Shown here: positions 14,221-48,878 of the stretch, in pieces
How positions within the stretch are numbered: position 1 is the first letter of the stretch
How the letters are laid out: every line of letters starts with the position of its first letter
Program-made: the position numbers and the translations under genes
Source: an uncultured SAR116 cluster alpha proteobacterium
Lineage (GTDB): Bacteria; Pseudomonadota; Alphaproteobacteria; Puniceispirillales; Puniceispirillaceae
Direction of reading: 5' to 3'
Length of the DNA stretch: 64,000 nucleotides
NCBI GenBank assembly: GCA_902596655.1
Contig: CACJUX010000009.1
Location: 1 to 64,000 of the forward strand
The notes under the pieces: model-generated
Told to the model about the DNA's origin: nothing
The model's input: only the letters and a program-made list of their open reading frames with translations
The model's database searches: none

Positions 14221-15570
14221 ATGGAATGTTGTGGTCCGGGTTACGCCAGCCCCGCGGAGGCGATCAAGGCACCCTGTGAGACTTTGCTCTATACCATTGC
14301 AATCTATACTGGCACTGGTATCCAGAAGCCAGACTATCTGGCGACTGTTGATGTCGACCCGGGTAGCTTGACATATTCCAAGGTCATTCACCGGCTGGAG
14401 ATGCCGGGGATCGGGGACGAACTGCACCACATGGGCTGGAATGCCTGTTCTTCTTGCTTTGACGACCCAAGCATGGCCCGTCGTTATCTACTTCTTCCTG
14501 GAGTACGGTCAAACAACATCCATGTCGTTGATACCGCCAGCGATCCGCGAGCGCCGTGCCTTCACAAGGTGATTGATGGTGCTGAGATCAAGGCAAAGGC
14601 TAATCTCTCCGGTCCGCACACGGTGCATTGTCTTGGTGCCGAGATCATCATTTCTTTTCTAGGCAACGCCAAAGGTGAGGCGCCTGGAGGCTATCTTCGT
14701 CTGAACAAGGATTTTGAAATTTTAGGGCGCTGGGAAAATTCGATGGGCGACATCAAATTTGGCTATGATTTCTGGTATCAGCCACGCCATAATGTGATGG
14801 TCTCATCTGAATGGGCGGCGCCAAATACATTCATGCCTGGCTTTGATCTGGAGGAGGTCGGCCATCTAAAATATGGGCGCGAGCTGCATTTTTGGGATTT
14901 TGAAAAGCGAGAACCTGTCGAGAGCTTCTACCTTGGCGAGGATGGTCTCGTGCCATTGGAAGTCAAATTTCACCATGACCCGAATAGCACGCATGGCTTT
15001 TGTGGAGCGGCGCTTAGCTCCAACGTCATCCATTGGTGGAAAAACGATGCTGGCAAATGGCAATGGGAAAAGATTATTGATGTTGAGAATGAGGCCCATC
15101 CCGAATGGCCGATACCGGTGCCGGGAGTAATGTCCGCCATCTTGGTTTCAATGGATGACAGATATCTCTATCTTAACAACTGGTTGCATGGCGACATGCG
15201 CCAATATGACATCTCCGATCCGCATAACCCAAAACTGACCGGCCAGGTCTGGATGGGGGGGTTGCTCGGCAAAGCACCGGTGGTGAATGGTGTCACCATG
15301 GCAGGTGGCCCGCAGATGTTCCAACTTAGTCTTGATGGCAGGCGACTTTACGTGACAACATCTCTTTTCAGCACCTGGGATAATCAATTCTATCCCGAAA
15401 TCCGTGAACAAGGCGGCGTGATGGTGATGATTGATTGTGATCCGGTTAATGGCGGTATGGAGATCAACAAGGACTTTATTGTTGATTTTGGTAAGGAGCC
15501 AAATGGGCCGAGCCGCTGCCATGAGGCCCGCTATCCCGGCGGCGACTGCACAAGCGATATCTGGCTATGA
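14221..15570 (+). CDS. mtoX: Selenium-binding protein SBP56 / methanethiol oxidase family
   Basis: N-terminal CCGPGYASPAEA, LHHMGWNACSSC, HGFCGAALSSNV, LYLNNWLHGDMRQYDISDPHNPKLTGQVWMGG; full-length SBP56. Confidence 0.88.
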   Translation: MECCGPGYASPAEAIKAPCETLLYTIAIYTGTGIQKPDYLATVDVDPGSLTYSKVIHRLEMPGIGDELHHMGWNACSSCFDDPSMARRYLLLPGVRSNNIHVVDTASDPRAPCLHKVIDGAEIKAKANLSGPHTVHCLGAEIIISFLGNAKGEAPGGYLRLNKDFEILGRWENSMGDIKFGYDFWYQPRHNVMVSSEWAAPNTFMPGFDLEEVGHLKYGRELHFWDFEKREPVESFYLGEDGLVPLEVKFHHDPNSTHGFCGAALSSNVIHWWKNDAGKWQWEKIIDVENEAHPEWPIPVPGVMSAILVSMDDRYLYLNNWLHGDMRQYDISDPHNPKLTGQVWMGGLLGKAPVVNGVTMAGGPQMFQLSLDGRRLYVTTSLFSTWDNQFYPEIREQGGVMVMIDCDPVNGGMEINKDFIVDFGKEPNGPSRCHEARYPGGDCTSDIWL

Positions 15571-15932
15571 TGACAATCACCCTTTCCAATCGCAACAACG
15601 ATAGCTATCAGGTCAAAGGCCGCAAGCCACTTCTTGATGAGCTGCGGGCGCAGGGTGTGGATCTTCCGTATGGCTGCCAATACGGCGGTTGCATCACCTG
15701 TGCGGCCAAACTCATTGAAGGCGAAATTGACCAACGCAGGCAGGTGGCTCTCAACAACCGACAGATCAACGACGGCTATGTGATCCTGTGCGTGGCGCGG
15801 GCCAAATCGGATTGTACGCTGGAGATTGGCGTCGAAAGTCATGACAGGCTTTACCGCAATCCGTTCCTCGACCCACTTGCCCCGCATGAGTTAAAAGCTG
15901 ATATCGCAACACCGCTGGATACTGACAAATGA
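15567..15932 (+). CDS. Plant-type [2Fe-2S] ferredoxin
   Basis: PYGCQYGGCITCAAKLIEG...VILCVA cluster motif; ATGA overlap with the SBP56 stop. Confidence 0.9.
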   Translation: MMTITLSNRNNDSYQVKGRKPLLDELRAQGVDLPYGCQYGGCITCAAKLIEGEIDQRRQVALNNRQINDGYVILCVARAKSDCTLEIGVESHDRLYRNPFLDPLAPHELKADIATPLDTDK

Positions 15933-16387
15933 CCCATCTAAACCATGACGAACCCTATAGCGATGAATATCTACAAGGCATTCTGAAATCGGTAAAGACG
16001 ATTGCCATGGTCGGCGCCAGCCCGGACAAGACTAAGTTCAGCTATGGCGTGCTGCGCGTTCTGCATGAAACTGGCTATGACATGATTCCGATAAATCCGC
16101 GCCCCGGTCTTGAGGAAATCCGCGGCATTAAGGTCTATCCCAATCTCGCTGCTATCGACCGGCCAGTTGACATGGTAGAGGTGTTCAGAAAGCCCAAAGA
16201 TCTCTATTGCATTGCCGAAGAAGCAATCGCCATCGGCGCTAAGGTTTTGTGGGGGCAGATCGGCGTGGTCAATCATGACGCCGCCTATCTTGCCGAGGAG
16301 GCTGGTCTCAAGGTGGTAATGAACCGCTGTCCAAAGATCGAGCTGTTTCGCCCCTTCTGGAAGCCGAAATTACATCTGGGCATTTGA
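15929..16387 (+). CDS. CoA-binding domain protein (YccU-like)
   Basis: IAMVGASPDKTKFSYGVLRVLHETGYDMIPINPRPG...VLWGQIGVVN; ATGA overlap with the ferredoxin stop. Confidence 0.9.
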   Translation: MTHLNHDEPYSDEYLQGILKSVKTIAMVGASPDKTKFSYGVLRVLHETGYDMIPINPRPGLEEIRGIKVYPNLAAIDRPVDMVEVFRKPKDLYCIAEEAIAIGAKVLWGQIGVVNHDAAYLAEEAGLKVVMNRCPKIELFRPFWKPKLHLGI

Positions 16388-38344: not shown

Positions 38345-39157
38345 ATGCATTCACTTATTACTGCCCGCCATATAGAGGATTACAAACGTGATGGCGTCGT
38401 CCTAATCAAAGGCCTTTTTGCTGGTTATGTCGACCTTATCCGCGATGGCATCGATGCGAATATGCGATCCCCCGGCCCCTATGCAGCAGAAAACCTTAAA
38501 CCAGATGAAACGGGGCGGTTCTTTGATGATTACTGCAACTGGCAACGTATCAACCAGTTCCGAGATGTAATCCATCTGTCACCTGCTGCTGAGGTTGCGG
38601 CTGATCTGATGGGGTCGCAGACAGTGCAGATTTTTCATGATCATGTACTGGTTAAAGAACCGGGAACAACTAAACCAACGCCATGGCATCAGGACAGCCC
38701 CTATTATTTCGTCGAGGGCCAACAAACGGTGAGTTTCTGGTCGCCAGTTGATTCTGTCAGTGATGCCGCGCTGCGCTGTGTCGCTGGCTCGCATCTTTGG
38801 GAGCGCCCGGTTTTGCCGGTGCGCTGGTTAGCTGAGGATCAGTTCTATCCGGAAGAGGGCAGCTACATGCCGGTTCCCGACCCCGACGCAGAGGCGATGG
38901 ACGTCCGCGAATGGGCAATGCAGCCGGGTGATGCGGTAGCATTTGATTTCCGAGTGTTGCATGGTGCCCGCGGTAATGCCAGCGCCGAGCGTCGCCGCGC
39001 GTTTTCGGTGCGGTTTGTTGGTGATGATGCCTGTTATGTGGAGCGGCCAGGCCGCACCTCACCGCCATTTCCGGGGCATGGGATGATACCGGGCCAGAGA
39101 TTACGTGATGATTGGTTCCCCATCGTTTTTCAGAGAAAATCATTAGCAGAAAAATGA
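38345..39157 (+). CDS. Phytanoyl-CoA dioxygenase (PhyH) family protein
   Basis: FHDHVLVKEPGTTKPTPWHQDSPYYFVEG, GDAVAFDFRVLHGARGNAS. Confidence 0.9.
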   Translation: MHSLITARHIEDYKRDGVVLIKGLFAGYVDLIRDGIDANMRSPGPYAAENLKPDETGRFFDDYCNWQRINQFRDVIHLSPAAEVAADLMGSQTVQIFHDHVLVKEPGTTKPTPWHQDSPYYFVEGQQTVSFWSPVDSVSDAALRCVAGSHLWERPVLPVRWLAEDQFYPEEGSYMPVPDPDAEAMDVREWAMQPGDAVAFDFRVLHGARGNASAERRRAFSVRFVGDDACYVERPGRTSPPFPGHGMIPGQRLRDDWFPIVFQRKSLAEK

Positions 39158-40596: not shown

Positions 40597-41772
<1,176 letters not shown>

Positions 41773-41778
41773 GGGTGA

Positions 41779-43104
41779 TCAGTCAATCTTAAGTGATTTT
41801 CCGCGCCGCAATTTCTGCTTGCGCTGAAAAATGCGGCCTGTTTGCAGGGCATTCTGACCCAGTTTATGCTGCACCTGATCCATCACCGCCTCAAGCTTGT
41901 TCTGCCTGTCGCTGACCCCCCTCTCAATGTCCAGAAGGGATGGTGCTTCCAGCACGCCCAGCTGGTCCACGCTAAAACCGATCAGCCGGAATGACCGCCC
42001 GGGCTTGACCTCGGCAAGCAGCAGTTTGCGCGCCGCCGCAAACAGAAGATGCGCCTTGTCAGTGCAGCTCTGCAGAGTCTGGCTCCGCGTTAATATCTTG
42101 TGATCTGGACGCTTCAGTTTGAGCGTGATCCGCCCGCCGGCAATGTCTGCATTTTTCAGCCGCGTCGAAACCTTCAGGCAAAGCATTTCGAGCTCAGCCT
42201 CGAGGTCAGAAAATGTGCTAAGATCCGCATAAAATGTGGTTTCGCTAGAAACACTCTTAGCAATTCTCTCAGTTGTTACCGGACGGGTGTCTATACCGGC
42301 GGCAAGATTTTGAATCTGCTTTGCCTGCTTTCCAAGAATGGCACTAAGCTGTCTGATGTCGGCCTCAACAAGATCACCGCAAGTGCTGTATCCAGCCGCA
42401 TTTAATCGGCCTGCCCATGACTTGCCCAGACCGAATAGAACGGATACGGGTTGCGGCGCAAGCCAGCTTTTGGCTTCAAGGTGGCCAACGGCAAAAAAAC
42501 CGTCGGGTTTGTCTCTGTCCGACGCCATTTTCGCCAGCGATTTAGTTGGCGCAAGCCCGATGGAAACGGTAATGCCAATCTCTTCACGAATCTTTGTCTG
42601 CATGCGAACTAGAGCCACCGCCGGGCTGCATCCATGTAGCGCCTCAGTCCCAGCAAGGTCGAGAAAGGCCTCGTCAATCGAAATTGGCTGGACTAGCGGT
42701 GTCAATTCCAGCATTTTCTCTCGAATCTGCCGGCTGATTTTCACGTAATGCGCCATCCGAGGTCTGATCACGATGGCGTCGGGACATCGTTTCAGTGCGG
42801 TCCAAGTCGGCATTGCCGAGCGCACACCATATTGGCGAGCAATGTAACAGGCAGCAGCAACAACACCGCGTTCCCGCCCGCCAACAATCACCGGCTTATC
42901 AGCCAGCTGCGGATTGTCTCGTTTTTCCACCGAGGCATAAAAGGCGTCACAATCTATGTGGGCGATGCACAAGTCAAAAAGTTCCGCATGCCACCGCACA
43001 TCCTCACCATTGCAATGCGGACATGATATCGGTGGATGCTCGCCATCGACAAAGCCGTTGCTGCCACAGCCCCTGCACAGTAGTGGATAGGATGAGACCG
43101 GCAT
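41779..43104 (-). CDS. dinB: DNA polymerase IV with N-terminal zinc-ribbon-like extension
   Basis: IAHIDCDAFYASVEKRDNP, YGVRSAMPTW, PISIDEAFLDLAG, VSIGLAPTKSLAKMASD; N-terminal CRGC...CPHC. Confidence 0.94.
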   Translation of the reverse strand: MPVSSYPLLCRGCGSNGFVDGEHPPISCPHCNGEDVRWHAELFDLCIAHIDCDAFYASVEKRDNPQLADKPVIVGGRERGVVAAACYIARQYGVRSAMPTWTALKRCPDAIVIRPRMAHYVKISRQIREKMLELTPLVQPISIDEAFLDLAGTEALHGCSPAVALVRMQTKIREEIGITVSIGLAPTKSLAKMASDRDKPDGFFAVGHLEAKSWLAPQPVSVLFGLGKSWAGRLNAAGYSTCGDLVEADIRQLSAILGKQAKQIQNLAAGIDTRPVTTERIAKSVSSETTFYADLSTFSDLEAELEMLCLKVSTRLKNADIAGGRITLKLKRPDHKILTRSQTLQSCTDKAHLLFAAARKLLLAEVKPGRSFRLIGFSVDQLGVLEAPSLLDIERGVSDRQNKLEAVMDQVQHKLGQNALQTGRIFQRKQKLRRGKSLKID

Positions 43105-43215: not shown

Positions 43216-44001
43216 TTAGAACTCCGCCATGAATTTGGCTGCCTCGCGCACCCGCGCCGCATTATCGCTGGCAATGCTGCCATCTGCCATATAGATCGAA
43301 TTTTCAAAGCCAACCCGTACCTTGCCGCCCGCTGCGATCGCTGCCTTCAGACACGCGGCCTCTTCGGTTGCAAAGGCGCAGATGGCCCAATCACTGTCGA
43401 TTTCGGCATTTTTCAACTCTGCTAGAAAGGGAGGCAATAACTCGGGGTAGCTGATCCGCCCTGTGTAGTGGCCGACAACAAACAGACACCAGATGCCCTG
43501 TCTTTCAAGTTCTGTCACATCCAGCAAATTTGCCAGCAAAGCAACATCCTCTGGGCCGTAGCATATATGTTGAAGCTGGATACTGGCTTCCAATGTCCAG
43601 TTGTAGAAGGCAATATCTTCTGGTTTTGGCACGCCATCTGGTATCATTTCCCGAACGCCAACAGATGCTCCCTGCGGGACCACCGCCCGAACAATATTGC
43701 GCATGTCGCTCGGTTGGTATTTGCCAACAGTTTCCGTGGTCATCTGCAGATGCATCTCTGGCACAGCGCGCTGCAACTCGGCAATCGCCTCATGATACAG
43801 CCCTACATCAAGAATGTGACTACCATCGGCGTCACGTACATGATAATGGATTGCACCGGCTCCGGCATCGGCGCAGTCACGCGCAACATTGGCGATCTCG
43901 CCGACATCAAGCGGCACCTGCGGGTGATCAGCCTTAACCTTGCGAGCGCCGTTGGGAGCAACCATGATCGGCGGTAGGGGTGATAATGTTGTGCTGGACA
44001 T
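43216..44001 (-). CDS. DUF849 / beta-keto acid cleavage enzyme (BKACE) family
   Basis: MVAPNGARKVKADHPQVPLDVGEIANVARDCADAGAGAIHYHVRDADGSHILD; DUF849 N-terminal pattern and VRVGFENSIYMADG. Confidence 0.9.
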   Translation of the reverse strand: MSSTTLSPLPPIMVAPNGARKVKADHPQVPLDVGEIANVARDCADAGAGAIHYHVRDADGSHILDVGLYHEAIAELQRAVPEMHLQMTTETVGKYQPSDMRNIVRAVVPQGASVGVREMIPDGVPKPEDIAFYNWTLEASIQLQHICYGPEDVALLANLLDVTELERQGIWCLFVVGHYTGRISYPELLPPFLAELKNAEIDSDWAICAFATEEAACLKAAIAAGGKVRVGFENSIYMADGSIASDNAARVREAAKFMAEF

Positions 44002-44010
44002 GATTTTGAT

Positions 44011-45189
44011 CTACCCGGCCGCAATGGATTTCTTTGGGTCATGGAACGGGATTGGAACGATGATCGCTCGGCGCTGCTGATCCTGATCGGACATCATCAC
44101 ATCAACCTGCTGGCCGATGCTGCTCACCCCAGTCTCGATCATGGAAAGCGCGATGTTCTTTTCGAGCCGTGGTGAATGGATTGCCGATGTTACCTTGCCG
44201 ACCTGCCGTCCATCGACGAACAGTGGCCAAAATTCATTGTTTGGCGATGTAAGCGGCTCTCCCTCGATTACAATGCCGATCTGGATACGGCTAATCCCCT
44301 CAGCCTTAATCTTGCGCAGCGCGGTTTTACCAACGAAATCCGCATCCATCTCGAGATCAACAAGCCTGTCAAGGCGTATCTCGAACGGATTTGTCTCGAT
44401 ATCCATGTCGGCGTGATAGGATAGCATACCACCCTCGATCCTGCGGATTGATGAGGTGTGGCCTGGGTGCAGATCATAATCAGTTCCGGCTGCCATGATG
44501 ATTTCCCACAGCTCCGCGCCGCGTGATCTGTCGCGCAGAAAGATCTCATAGCCAAGTTCGCTGGACCAGCCCGTGCGTGATACTACAAGCGGCATACCAT
44601 TCAACTCGGTTTCAGCAAACCAGTAATACTTCAATTTAGCAATGGCATCGCCGAATATCTGGCGGATGATTTCGCGTGAATTTGGTCCCTGAAGCTGCAG
44701 GGGCGAAACATCGGGTTCACAGATTGTTACATCCATTCCAGCATTGGCGGTGAGCCCCCTTGCCCATAGCAGGACGTCGCTGTCACCGATGGAAATCCAG
44801 AAATGATTGTCAGCCAGTTTCAGCAAAACTGGGTCATTGATGATGCCGCCATGCTGATCGGTGATTAGGATATATTTGGCCTGCCCAACGGCCATGTTGG
44901 TCAGGTTACGGGGCGTCATGTATTGTACGAAACGCGCAGCATCAGGGCCGGTGATCTCAACCTGCCGTTCAACAGCGACATCGCACAGGATGGCGGTCTT
45001 TGTTAGATTCCAGAAATTTTCCACCGGGTCGCCAAAATCGCGCGGGATATACATGTGGTTATAAACTGAATAGCCCGTCGCGCCCCATTTCTCGGTTGCC
45101 GCGAAGAAGGGTGATCGGCGGATCTGAGTGCCAAATCCTGCGGATGCAATTTTGGAAGTTGGCTTTGGTGAGGCTGGAGGTGAGTTCAT
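44011..45189 (-). CDS. GcvT/DmdA-like tetrahydrofolate-dependent aminomethyltransferase/demethylase family
   Basis: GYSVYNHMYIPRDFGDPVENFWNLTKTAILCDVAVERQVEITGPDAARFVQYMTPRNL, LQLQGPNSREIIRQIFG, SRTGWSSELGYEIFL; DVAVERQVEI resembles the DmdA-branch pattern. Confidence 0.85.
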   Translation of the reverse strand: MNSPPASPKPTSKIASAGFGTQIRRSPFFAATEKWGATGYSVYNHMYIPRDFGDPVENFWNLTKTAILCDVAVERQVEITGPDAARFVQYMTPRNLTNMAVGQAKYILITDQHGGIINDPVLLKLADNHFWISIGDSDVLLWARGLTANAGMDVTICEPDVSPLQLQGPNSREIIRQIFGDAIAKLKYYWFAETELNGMPLVVSRTGWSSELGYEIFLRDRSRGAELWEIIMAAGTDYDLHPGHTSSIRRIEGGMLSYHADMDIETNPFEIRLDRLVDLEMDADFVGKTALRKIKAEGISRIQIGIVIEGEPLTSPNNEFWPLFVDGRQVGKVTSAIHSPRLEKNIALSMIETGVSSIGQQVDVMMSDQDQQRRAIIVPIPFHDPKKSIAAG

Positions 45190-47542: not shown

Positions 47543-47824
47543 ATGGCAGACTATAATGCTGCGGGCATTTCAACGGTTGGTGCTGCCCGCATTTTCACAC
47601 AGGACTCTGCCCGTTCACTGCGGCTTTCCAAAGCGGTGCGGGCCGGTATGGTTTGGGTGAATACTTATCGCGCCATTTCTCCCATCGCAGAATTTGGTGG
47701 CACTAAGACATTGGGCTATGGGCGTAAAAAGGGCTCTCAGACAATCTATAATTACACGCGGCCAAAGACTGTGTGGATAAATGCATCCAGCGCACTGTTG
47801 GCTAGCCAGTTTGTGCCACGCTGA
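47543..47824 (+). pseudogene. Aldehyde dehydrogenase C-terminal remnant
   Basis: GAARIFTQDSARSLRLSKAVRAGMVWVNTYRAISPIAEFGGTKTLGYGRKKGSQTIYNYTRPKTVWIN corresponds to only the last roughly 90 residues of an ALDH; catalytic and NAD-binding parts absent. Confidence 0.85.
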
Positions 47825-47843
47825 CAGTAAGGGAGGACAGATC

Positions 47844-48878
47844 ATGAAATTCCATCTTGCAGTTAATCTGGAGAGAATGAATGATGCCACCGATATGATG
47901 GCTGTGCAAAAGCACACGCTGGAAATGTTGCAGATGGCTGATCGCGCGGGGTTTGAAATCGCCTGGGCAGCTGAACATCATGCGCTGGAAATGACAATTG
48001 CGCCAAACCCATTTCAACTGCTTACCTGGTGGGCCAACCACACTGACAGCATTCGTCTTGGATCTGGTGTTGCCAATGCTGCTTACTGGCACCCGATCAA
48101 TATCGCGGGTGAGGCGGCGATGGTGGATCTGATCTCCAGCGGACGTCTTGAATTCGGTCTCGGCTCGGGTGCCTATCAGCGTGAATTTGACCGAATGCAC
48201 CCTGGCCTCGACCAAAAGGACAGCTATCGCTACATGCAGGAGATGCTGCCGCTTGTGCGTCAACTTTGGCAGGGCGATGTGGCGCATGAGGGTGAGTTTT
48301 GGCAGTTTCCAGCGGCAACATCCTGTCCTAAACCGGTACAAAAAGAAGTGCCGTGCTGGGTTGCGGCACGATCACCCATTACCTTTGACTATGCAGTCGC
48401 CAATGACTGCAACATCATGAGCTGGCCTTTGACGCTTCCGATGTCCGAAGCCGAGACATACCGACGGAACCTTGATGAGGCCATCGCTAACTCAGACAAT
48501 GGGTGGGCAGGAACGTTTGCTGTGATGCGCCATACGGCAGTCTATGCAAATGCTGCTGACCGAAGCGCCGCGATTGCTGCCATCCGCAATGTGCTGGCGC
48601 AATTTGGCAACCTGATGATGAAAAGGGGCAGGGTTGAGAACGGATTTCCTGAACCGATCCCCTTTGCCGCGCTTGAGGGTAACGTCAGGGTCGATCCCGA
48701 AATGCTAGAGGAAAATTTGATGTTTGGATCACCGAAGCAGGTGATCGCCAAATTACAGGATTATCAGAGACTGGGGGTCGACGCCTTCATTTATTATGCG
48801 TCAATGGGTCTTGGGATGGATGAACAGAAACGCTCAATGGAGTTGTTTTGCAGGGAAGTCCTGCCCGCCTTTCAGTGA
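47844..48878 (+). CDS. LLM-class (luciferase-like) flavin-dependent oxidoreductase
   Basis: FEIAWAAEHHALEMTIAPNPFQLLTWWANHTDSIRLGSGVANAAYWHPINIAGEAAMVDLISSGRLEFGLGSGAYQREFDR. ATG at 47844. Confidence 0.93.
   Translation: MKFHLAVNLERMNDATDMMAVQKHTLEMLQMADRAGFEIAWAAEHHALEMTIAPNPFQLLTWWANHTDSIRLGSGVANAAYWHPINIAGEAAMVDLISSGRLEFGLGSGAYQREFDRMHPGLDQKDSYRYMQEMLPLVRQLWQGDVAHEGEFWQFPAATSCPKPVQKEVPCWVAARSPITFDYAVANDCNIMSWPLTLPMSEAETYRRNLDEAIANSDNGWAGTFAVMRHTAVYANAADRSAAIAAIRNVLAQFGNLMMKRGRVENGFPEPIPFAALEGNVRVDPEMLEENLMFGSPKQVIAKLQDYQRLGVDAFIYYASMGLGMDEQKRSMELFCREVLPAFQ

Follow-up and report, generated by a model that had tools for sequence, protein, structure and literature searches.

DMSP demethylation sets the share of marine sulfur that passes to methanethiol as opposed to dimethyl sulfide. 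The closest described systems to the locus treated here are the demethylase DmdA, with a solved structure from Pelagibacter (3tfh) and a family model (NF009133), the Dmd pathway with the methanethiol oxidase MtoX in Ruegeria pomeroyi, and the beta-keto acid cleavage enzymes (BKACE) of the DUF849 family, such as Kce (2y7d) and BKACE15 (8rip). In DmdA, a tryptophan (W171) is a DMSP-specific contact and a Glu/Tyr pair, its Glu being E178, binds folate (PMC7487153). In R. pomeroyi, mtoX has an IclR-type regulator upstream and is induced by DMSP through methanethiol (PMC5739008). In BKACE15, E171 was assigned as the catalytic base and the replacement E171L abolished activity (PMC11961710). DmdA-like aminomethyltransferases of unassigned substrate are on record from marine Alphaproteobacteria, both as non-DmdA homologs (PMC7487153) and as the SAR11 paralog SAR11_1265 (PMC3160333), and homologs of this kind are thus in themselves no novelty. 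The SAR116 literature is at odds on where dmdA occurs; in one account, SAR116 dmdA was counted, dmdB and dmdC were of low identity and dmdD was missing (PMC8547437).

The window analysed in this work is a stretch of 64,000 nucleotides from an uncultured SAR116 alphaproteobacterium (contig CACJUX010000009.1). It holds a DmdA-like gene and, next to it, a gene of the DUF849 family (Table 1), which the original prediction had read as two steps of one pathway. The comparison below supports a distinct clade of DmdA relatives with partners of its own, and sets the DUF849 gene apart from it.

Table 1. Genes of the window discussed in the text, in order of position
Position	Strand	Length	Gene product	Basis or remark
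14221..15570	+		SBP56 (methanethiol-oxidase family)	family from L011 homolog
15567..15932	+		2Fe-2S ferredoxin-type, SBP56 module	L011 homolog is Fer2
15929..16387	+		CoA-binding-domain-like, SBP56 module	family by sequence resemblance
38345..39157	+		phytanoyl-CoA dioxygenase family (PhyH)	DUF849-dinB-pobA-phyH block
40603..41772	+		FAD monooxygenase, PobA-like	DUF849-dinB-pobA-phyH block
41779..43104	-		DinB (DNA polymerase IV)-like	older conserved neighbour of DUF849
43216..44001	-	261 aa	DUF849/BKACE-fold protein, non-canonical subfamily	Pfam, Kce alignment, profile alignment
44011..45189	-	392 aa	clade-A DmdA-like GCV_T-fold protein, candidate folate-dependent demethylase	Pfam, NCBIfam, tree, residues
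45739..46581	+		enoyl-CoA hydratase, PRK08139 family	378.7 bits, cut-off 313; divergent upstream of the demethylase

A clade of DmdA relatives

The reading frame at 44011-45189 is intact, and its protein carries the two-domain architecture of DmdA (Pfam GCV_T, 2.4e-44, and GCV_T_C) with no FAD domain found by Pfam. Among the NCBIfam models that of DmdA (NF009133) is the closest, at 372.8 bits (cut-off 410); the protein also stays below the cut-offs of the gcvT models; the closest solved structure is 3tfh (5.8e-75), with about 36% identity across 349 residues. It coexists with a separate DmdA gene of the same genome (C38), which scores 563.7 bits on NF009133, above the cut-off. In a tree of 64 rows, including GcvT, TMAO demethylase, flavoprotein-type rows and 3tfh, the protein falls in a clade of 22 rows (support 100/98), here called clade A; 3tfh itself is in another, the DmdA clade (100/98). 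Both clades lie within one superclade (99/99), well apart from the GcvT, TMAO demethylase and flavoprotein-type rows. DmdA proper is rejected on the sub-cut-off score and the separate clade, and a GcvT or oxidative enzyme on scores and tree. The view in the original prediction of a protein related to DmdA yet not DmdA is upheld, and the phylogeny gave no grouping with sarcosine or dimethylglycine oxidative enzymes.

Residues point the same way. All 41 clade-A members checked in 3tfh numbering differ from 3tfh by H50N, Q56I, W58C, C233H, P234T, N235S and E238R (N61, I67, C69, H244-T245-S246 and R249 in the protein of the window), seven positions that are invariant or nearly so among the DmdA rows. 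Kept in the same 41 members, as the likeness to the DmdA core, are D108, S122, D125, R194, W197, E204, R239 and E241. At W197, E204 and Y206, which match the contact residues of PMC7487153 by motif spacing, the protein of the window has W, E and F. With the first two kept and F in place of Y206, folate-dependent methyl transfer seems likely, and the protein probably uses folate. The replacement of DmdA-invariant residues throughout the clade, on the other hand, suggests that the substrate may not be DMSP; judging from these positions it may resemble DMSP without necessarily being DMSP itself. The motifs quoted earlier from this protein (DVAVERQVEITGPDAARF, YSVYNHM and NPFEIRL) are all present in it, and the loss of NPFECG that had been noticed is real, C260 of DmdA being I here and L in 21 of the 22 clade members checked.

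Orthologs of clade A (54-67% identity) were found in about 38 of the 61 genomes searched, which comprise that of the window and its relatives, as well as in other Alpha- and Gammaproteobacteria. At least 12 relatives with a completeness of at least 90% have clade A and no gene above the DmdA cut-off, two of them with fragments that are possibly cut copies. Like the homologs of PMC7487153 and SAR11_1265, to which they were compared by description, the members from marine Alphaproteobacteria are DmdA-like aminomethyltransferases; SAR11_1265 differs in adjoining metF, which was not noticed beside clade A.

A further DmdA-like paralog in the genome of the window (G000:C58, locus L234; 415.2 bits, just above the cut-off) sits on a long branch of the tree and adjoins another TPP enzyme, a GMC-type oxidoreductase and a hydratase-like gene. 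In SAR116, putative DMSP demethylase genes above the DmdA cut-off (L116, L118, L121, L123, L127, L131, L132 and L233) lie in a conserved cluster with what are, by sequence resemblance, a TPP-dependent enzyme, an FMN alpha-hydroxyacid oxidase-like protein and a transthyretin-like small protein; most of the SAR116 genes of this kind looked at are found in that cluster, not with dmdB-type genes.

Genes that accompany clade A

Partners were counted within 5 kb of the 48 clade-A loci with flanks and compared with 49 control loci. An Lrp-type regulator was found at 11 of the 48, an enoyl-CoA hydratase at 9, OsmC at 7, an acyl-CoA ligase at 6, SBP56 at 4 and DUF849 at 2. With relatedness ignored, Lrp (Fisher 0.0002), hydratase (0.001) and OsmC (0.006) are enriched, and SBP56 (0.17) and ligase (0.49) are not significantly above the controls. 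This is partly because the mixed background includes two loci picked for their ligase and three with DmdA-linked ligases, and the ligase value is uninformative as the background is not neutral.

Outside SAR116 a frequent order is Lrp-type regulator, demethylase, OsmC, hydratase and ligase (L185, L186 and L192, with parts of it in L010, L181, L182, L183 and L216). The four loci with SBP56 (L011, L015, L218 and L220) belong to different families. In L218 SBP56, a CoA_binding-like gene, hydratase, ligase and demethylase are all on the same strand, and Fer2 is expected between the first two by analogy with the gene order of L011 and L220; in L011 an IclR-like gene, so named by sequence resemblance, stands between SBP56 and the demethylase. 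Given the induction of mtoX by DMSP through methanethiol, the linkage of SBP56 to clade A appears meaningful. In SAR116, 19 of the 22 clade-A copies have no partner next door, and no conserved neighbourhood was found among the 22 beyond a hydratase in three; in one genome (G010) the hydratase lies immediately downstream. Three SAR116 genomes (L124, L230 and L232) have a ligase of the clade-A partner family right behind a DmdA gene above the cut-off, which supports a DmdB-like role for it; at 1e-120 this ligase family is absent from the genome of the window and from its sister G004. The SBP56 of the window is 86% identical to the one beside the clade-A gene in L011, and the ferredoxin-type gene of its module keeps the order of L011 and L220, but the module is 28 kb from 44011 and only loosely linked to the demethylase here.

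Genes for a demethylase, an acyl-CoA ligase, a crotonase and an oxidase of the SBP56 family thus come together much as in the Dmd pathway with MtoX of R. pomeroyi. The proteins themselves differ: the ligase falls outside the DmdB model (about 320 on the annotated model, cut-off 822), and the SBP56 proteins fall short of the MtoX equivalog (NF052453, cut-off 650) with 153 bits in L011 and 161 in L015, the L011 protein matching PF05694 at 682 bits; the hydratase belongs to the PRK08139 family, and no acyl-CoA dehydrogenase (DmdC) was noticed nearby in the clade-A clusters.

Other genes were seen near members of the clade. One MED-G116 locus (L075, 10629-11900) has a 423-aa gene between demethylase and hydratase that does not occur in the window. 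In a 1.32-Mb genome (G355; L190, 5849-8113) a different hydratase-like gene and a ligase-like gene, situated downstream of TRAP transporter-like genes, run convergently to the clade-A gene. The window itself encodes at 47781-48878 a luciferase-like flavin monooxygenase that is below all the listed NCBIfam cut-offs, including that of SfnG (dimethylsulfone monooxygenase).

The DUF849 protein and its neighbours

The second gene of the pair is also intact, and both lie on the minus strand 9 nt apart (gap GATTTTGAT), as originally described. Its protein matches the BKACE family of Pfam (PF05853, 9.1e-47) and, by hhalign, the sequences of solved DUF849 proteins (probability 99.9); the profile alignment (27% identity) is in the same register as that to Kce. 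As in the BKACE with solved structures, members of the same TIM-barrel family, Arg226 of Kce is kept (R229), and so are His46, His48 and Glu230 (H52, H54 and E233), which we take to be zinc ligands and which are conserved in 49 of 49 homologs. In contrast to those enzymes, Glu143 is replaced by I146, Asp231 by N234, and the position of Glu14 holds R20. No homolog has Glu at position 143 (Ile in 45, Leu in 4), and all 49 have Asn at Asp231 and Arg at the Glu14 position. Glu143 of Kce was equated with Glu171 of BKACE15 from Tyr145/Tyr173 (PMC12871164) and the Arg226/Arg254 offsets. The active-site residues speak against an assignment to the beta-keto acid cleavage enzymes, and the protein is, to judge by them, probably no canonical member of these enzymes, although PF05853 matches its base-less subfamily. 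The arginine at the Glu14 position, moreover, would make it unlikely that the substrate is a cationic onium keto acid.

Relatives of this protein occur in 34 of the 61 genomes, but adjacent to clade A only in the genome of the window and in G004, of the same genus, and these account for both of the DUF849 cases among the 48 loci. In a class-wide sample of 385 genomes the two genes, where both occur, are far apart. The relative that shares the pair is SAR116 MED-G116 (L009), and the 9-nt gap is kept in both species of the genus, the ATG of DUF849 lying 9 nt past the demethylase stop, with the pair proteins about 86% identical between the two genomes. The kept spacing and orientation make co-transcription plausible in this genus. 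A conserved demethylase-DUF849 operon is rejected on 2 of 48 loci in one genus, and the survey of the pairing across genomes came close to the outcome that was named beforehand as refuting the prediction, a pair confined to one genome. The demethylase route as proposed below does not need the DUF849 gene, which should caution against inferring a pathway from a single tight gene pair; a limited search found no literature treating DmdA and DUF849 together. In the MED-G116 locus (L009, 7180-7260) the DUF849 protein has an N-terminal extension of a short repeat, CAGTCGTCAACTCCC, starting from 9 nt past the demethylase stop.

The older neighbours of the DUF849 gene are dinB, pobA and phyH. Three genomes of a related genus (g2: G026, G035 and G031) have it beside these genes as in the window, with no demethylase next to it. 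Matches to the DUF849 protein in G040, G046 and G049 contain an in-frame TAA and are possibly decaying copies.

Proposed route and alternatives

Taking clade membership, the conserved residues, the partners elsewhere, and the hydratase and SBP56 module of the window together, we give an even chance to clade A being an unrecognised DmdA-type, folate-dependent demethylase of a DMSP-like sulfonium acid, feeding a Dmd-like route that releases methanethiol. The clade-A protein would pass a methyl group from such an acid (DMSP or a close relative) to tetrahydrofolate in a redox-neutral step; the demethylated acid would be activated with CoA by the acyl-CoA ligase, as by DmdB; a crotonase would process the CoA product in a DmdD-like step with release of methanethiol, which the SBP56 protein would then oxidise. 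Folate as the acceptor, the nature of the substrate, the sequence of steps and methanethiol as the product are what we infer from the comparisons above. Against this reading count the 19 SAR116 copies with no partner next door, the absence at 1e-120 of the ligase family from the genome of the window and G004, the replaced DmdA-invariant residues, the low scores of SBP56 and ligase on the MtoX and DmdB models, their counts not significantly above the controls, and the clusters in which no acyl-CoA dehydrogenase was noticed.

The substrate could be of another kind. Demethylation of a nitrogen onium (glycine betaine, beta-alanine betaine or a carnitine-type compound) to give 5-methyl-THF would fit the loss of DmdA-invariant residues and the above-cut-off DmdA already present in the genome, and some members have genes nearby that would suit it by sequence resemblance: BCCT-like transporters at L081 and at L094, an MttB-like gene in the surroundings of L077, and a cluster of carnitine type close to L015. 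We nevertheless hold it to be rather unlikely. Such neighbours turn up sporadically, in contrast to the hydratase, ligase and SBP56, which are met again in several families, and no role is obvious for a gene of the methanethiol-oxidase type if the substrate contains nitrogen. It is far harder to see in clade A an aminomethyltransferase of the glycine-cleavage or oxidative type, working with formaldehyde or methylene-THF: fold and Pfam family are shared, but the protein is outside the GcvT and flavoprotein-type rows and has no FAD domain, relatives have another gene (about 28% identity to 44011-45189) as the gcvT in linkage with gcvH/gcvP, and no gcvH or gcvP was noticed in the clade-A flanks listed.

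Two further readings give the DUF849 protein a part. The one originally predicted, in which it uses acetyl-CoA to cleave a methylated onium beta-keto acid whose product is then demethylated by the DmdA-like protein, draws on the 9-nt spacing and common orientation kept in both genomes of the genus despite about 86% identity; the rarity of that adjacency, the absence of the catalytic base with Asn at Asp231 and Arg at the Glu14 position throughout the homologs, and the dinB, pobA and phyH neighbours that DUF849 keeps where the demethylase sits elsewhere make it very improbable, and as a pathway the pair was not borne out. A role confined to the genus, with DUF849 supplying an activity other than that of BKACE (such as decarboxylation or some other Zn-dependent C-C reaction on an acid) to the pathway of the demethylase, would suit the tight pair of the two species and a protein that keeps the Zn-ligand positions and Arg226 with the base lost, and groups of DUF849 proteins that lack BKACE activity, among them one with decarboxylation activity, have been reported (PMC4922564). 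Yet the pairing is absent outside the genus and Alphaproteobacteria carry DUF849 homologs independently of the demethylase, so that we consider this role improbable too.

Returning to the sulfonium demethylase, we would extend it only tentatively to a second, unrecognised family that has a crotonase and a ligase of its own and is coupled to methanethiol oxidation by SBP56. Such a family would be widespread, from SAR116 and the small, streamlined genomes of marine Alphaproteobacteria to other bacteria, and would extend to genomes apparently devoid of DmdA. If true, current dmdA surveys miss or miscount this family, and gene-based estimates of DMSP demethylation would be altered; the recurring hydratase, ligase and SBP56 would offer candidates for the dmdB, dmdC and dmdD gaps of SAR116, and we infer that clade A may be partly behind the disagreement on SAR116 dmdA and its missing steps. 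The partner genes of clade A, its signature residues and the base loss of DUF849 were not found in the literature in a limited search.

In L015 (8777-12819), from a Rhizobiaceae MAG, the cluster near the clade-A gene resembles carnitine degradation in sequence and includes a DUF849-like protein that is longer and of a different type, likewise by sequence resemblance.
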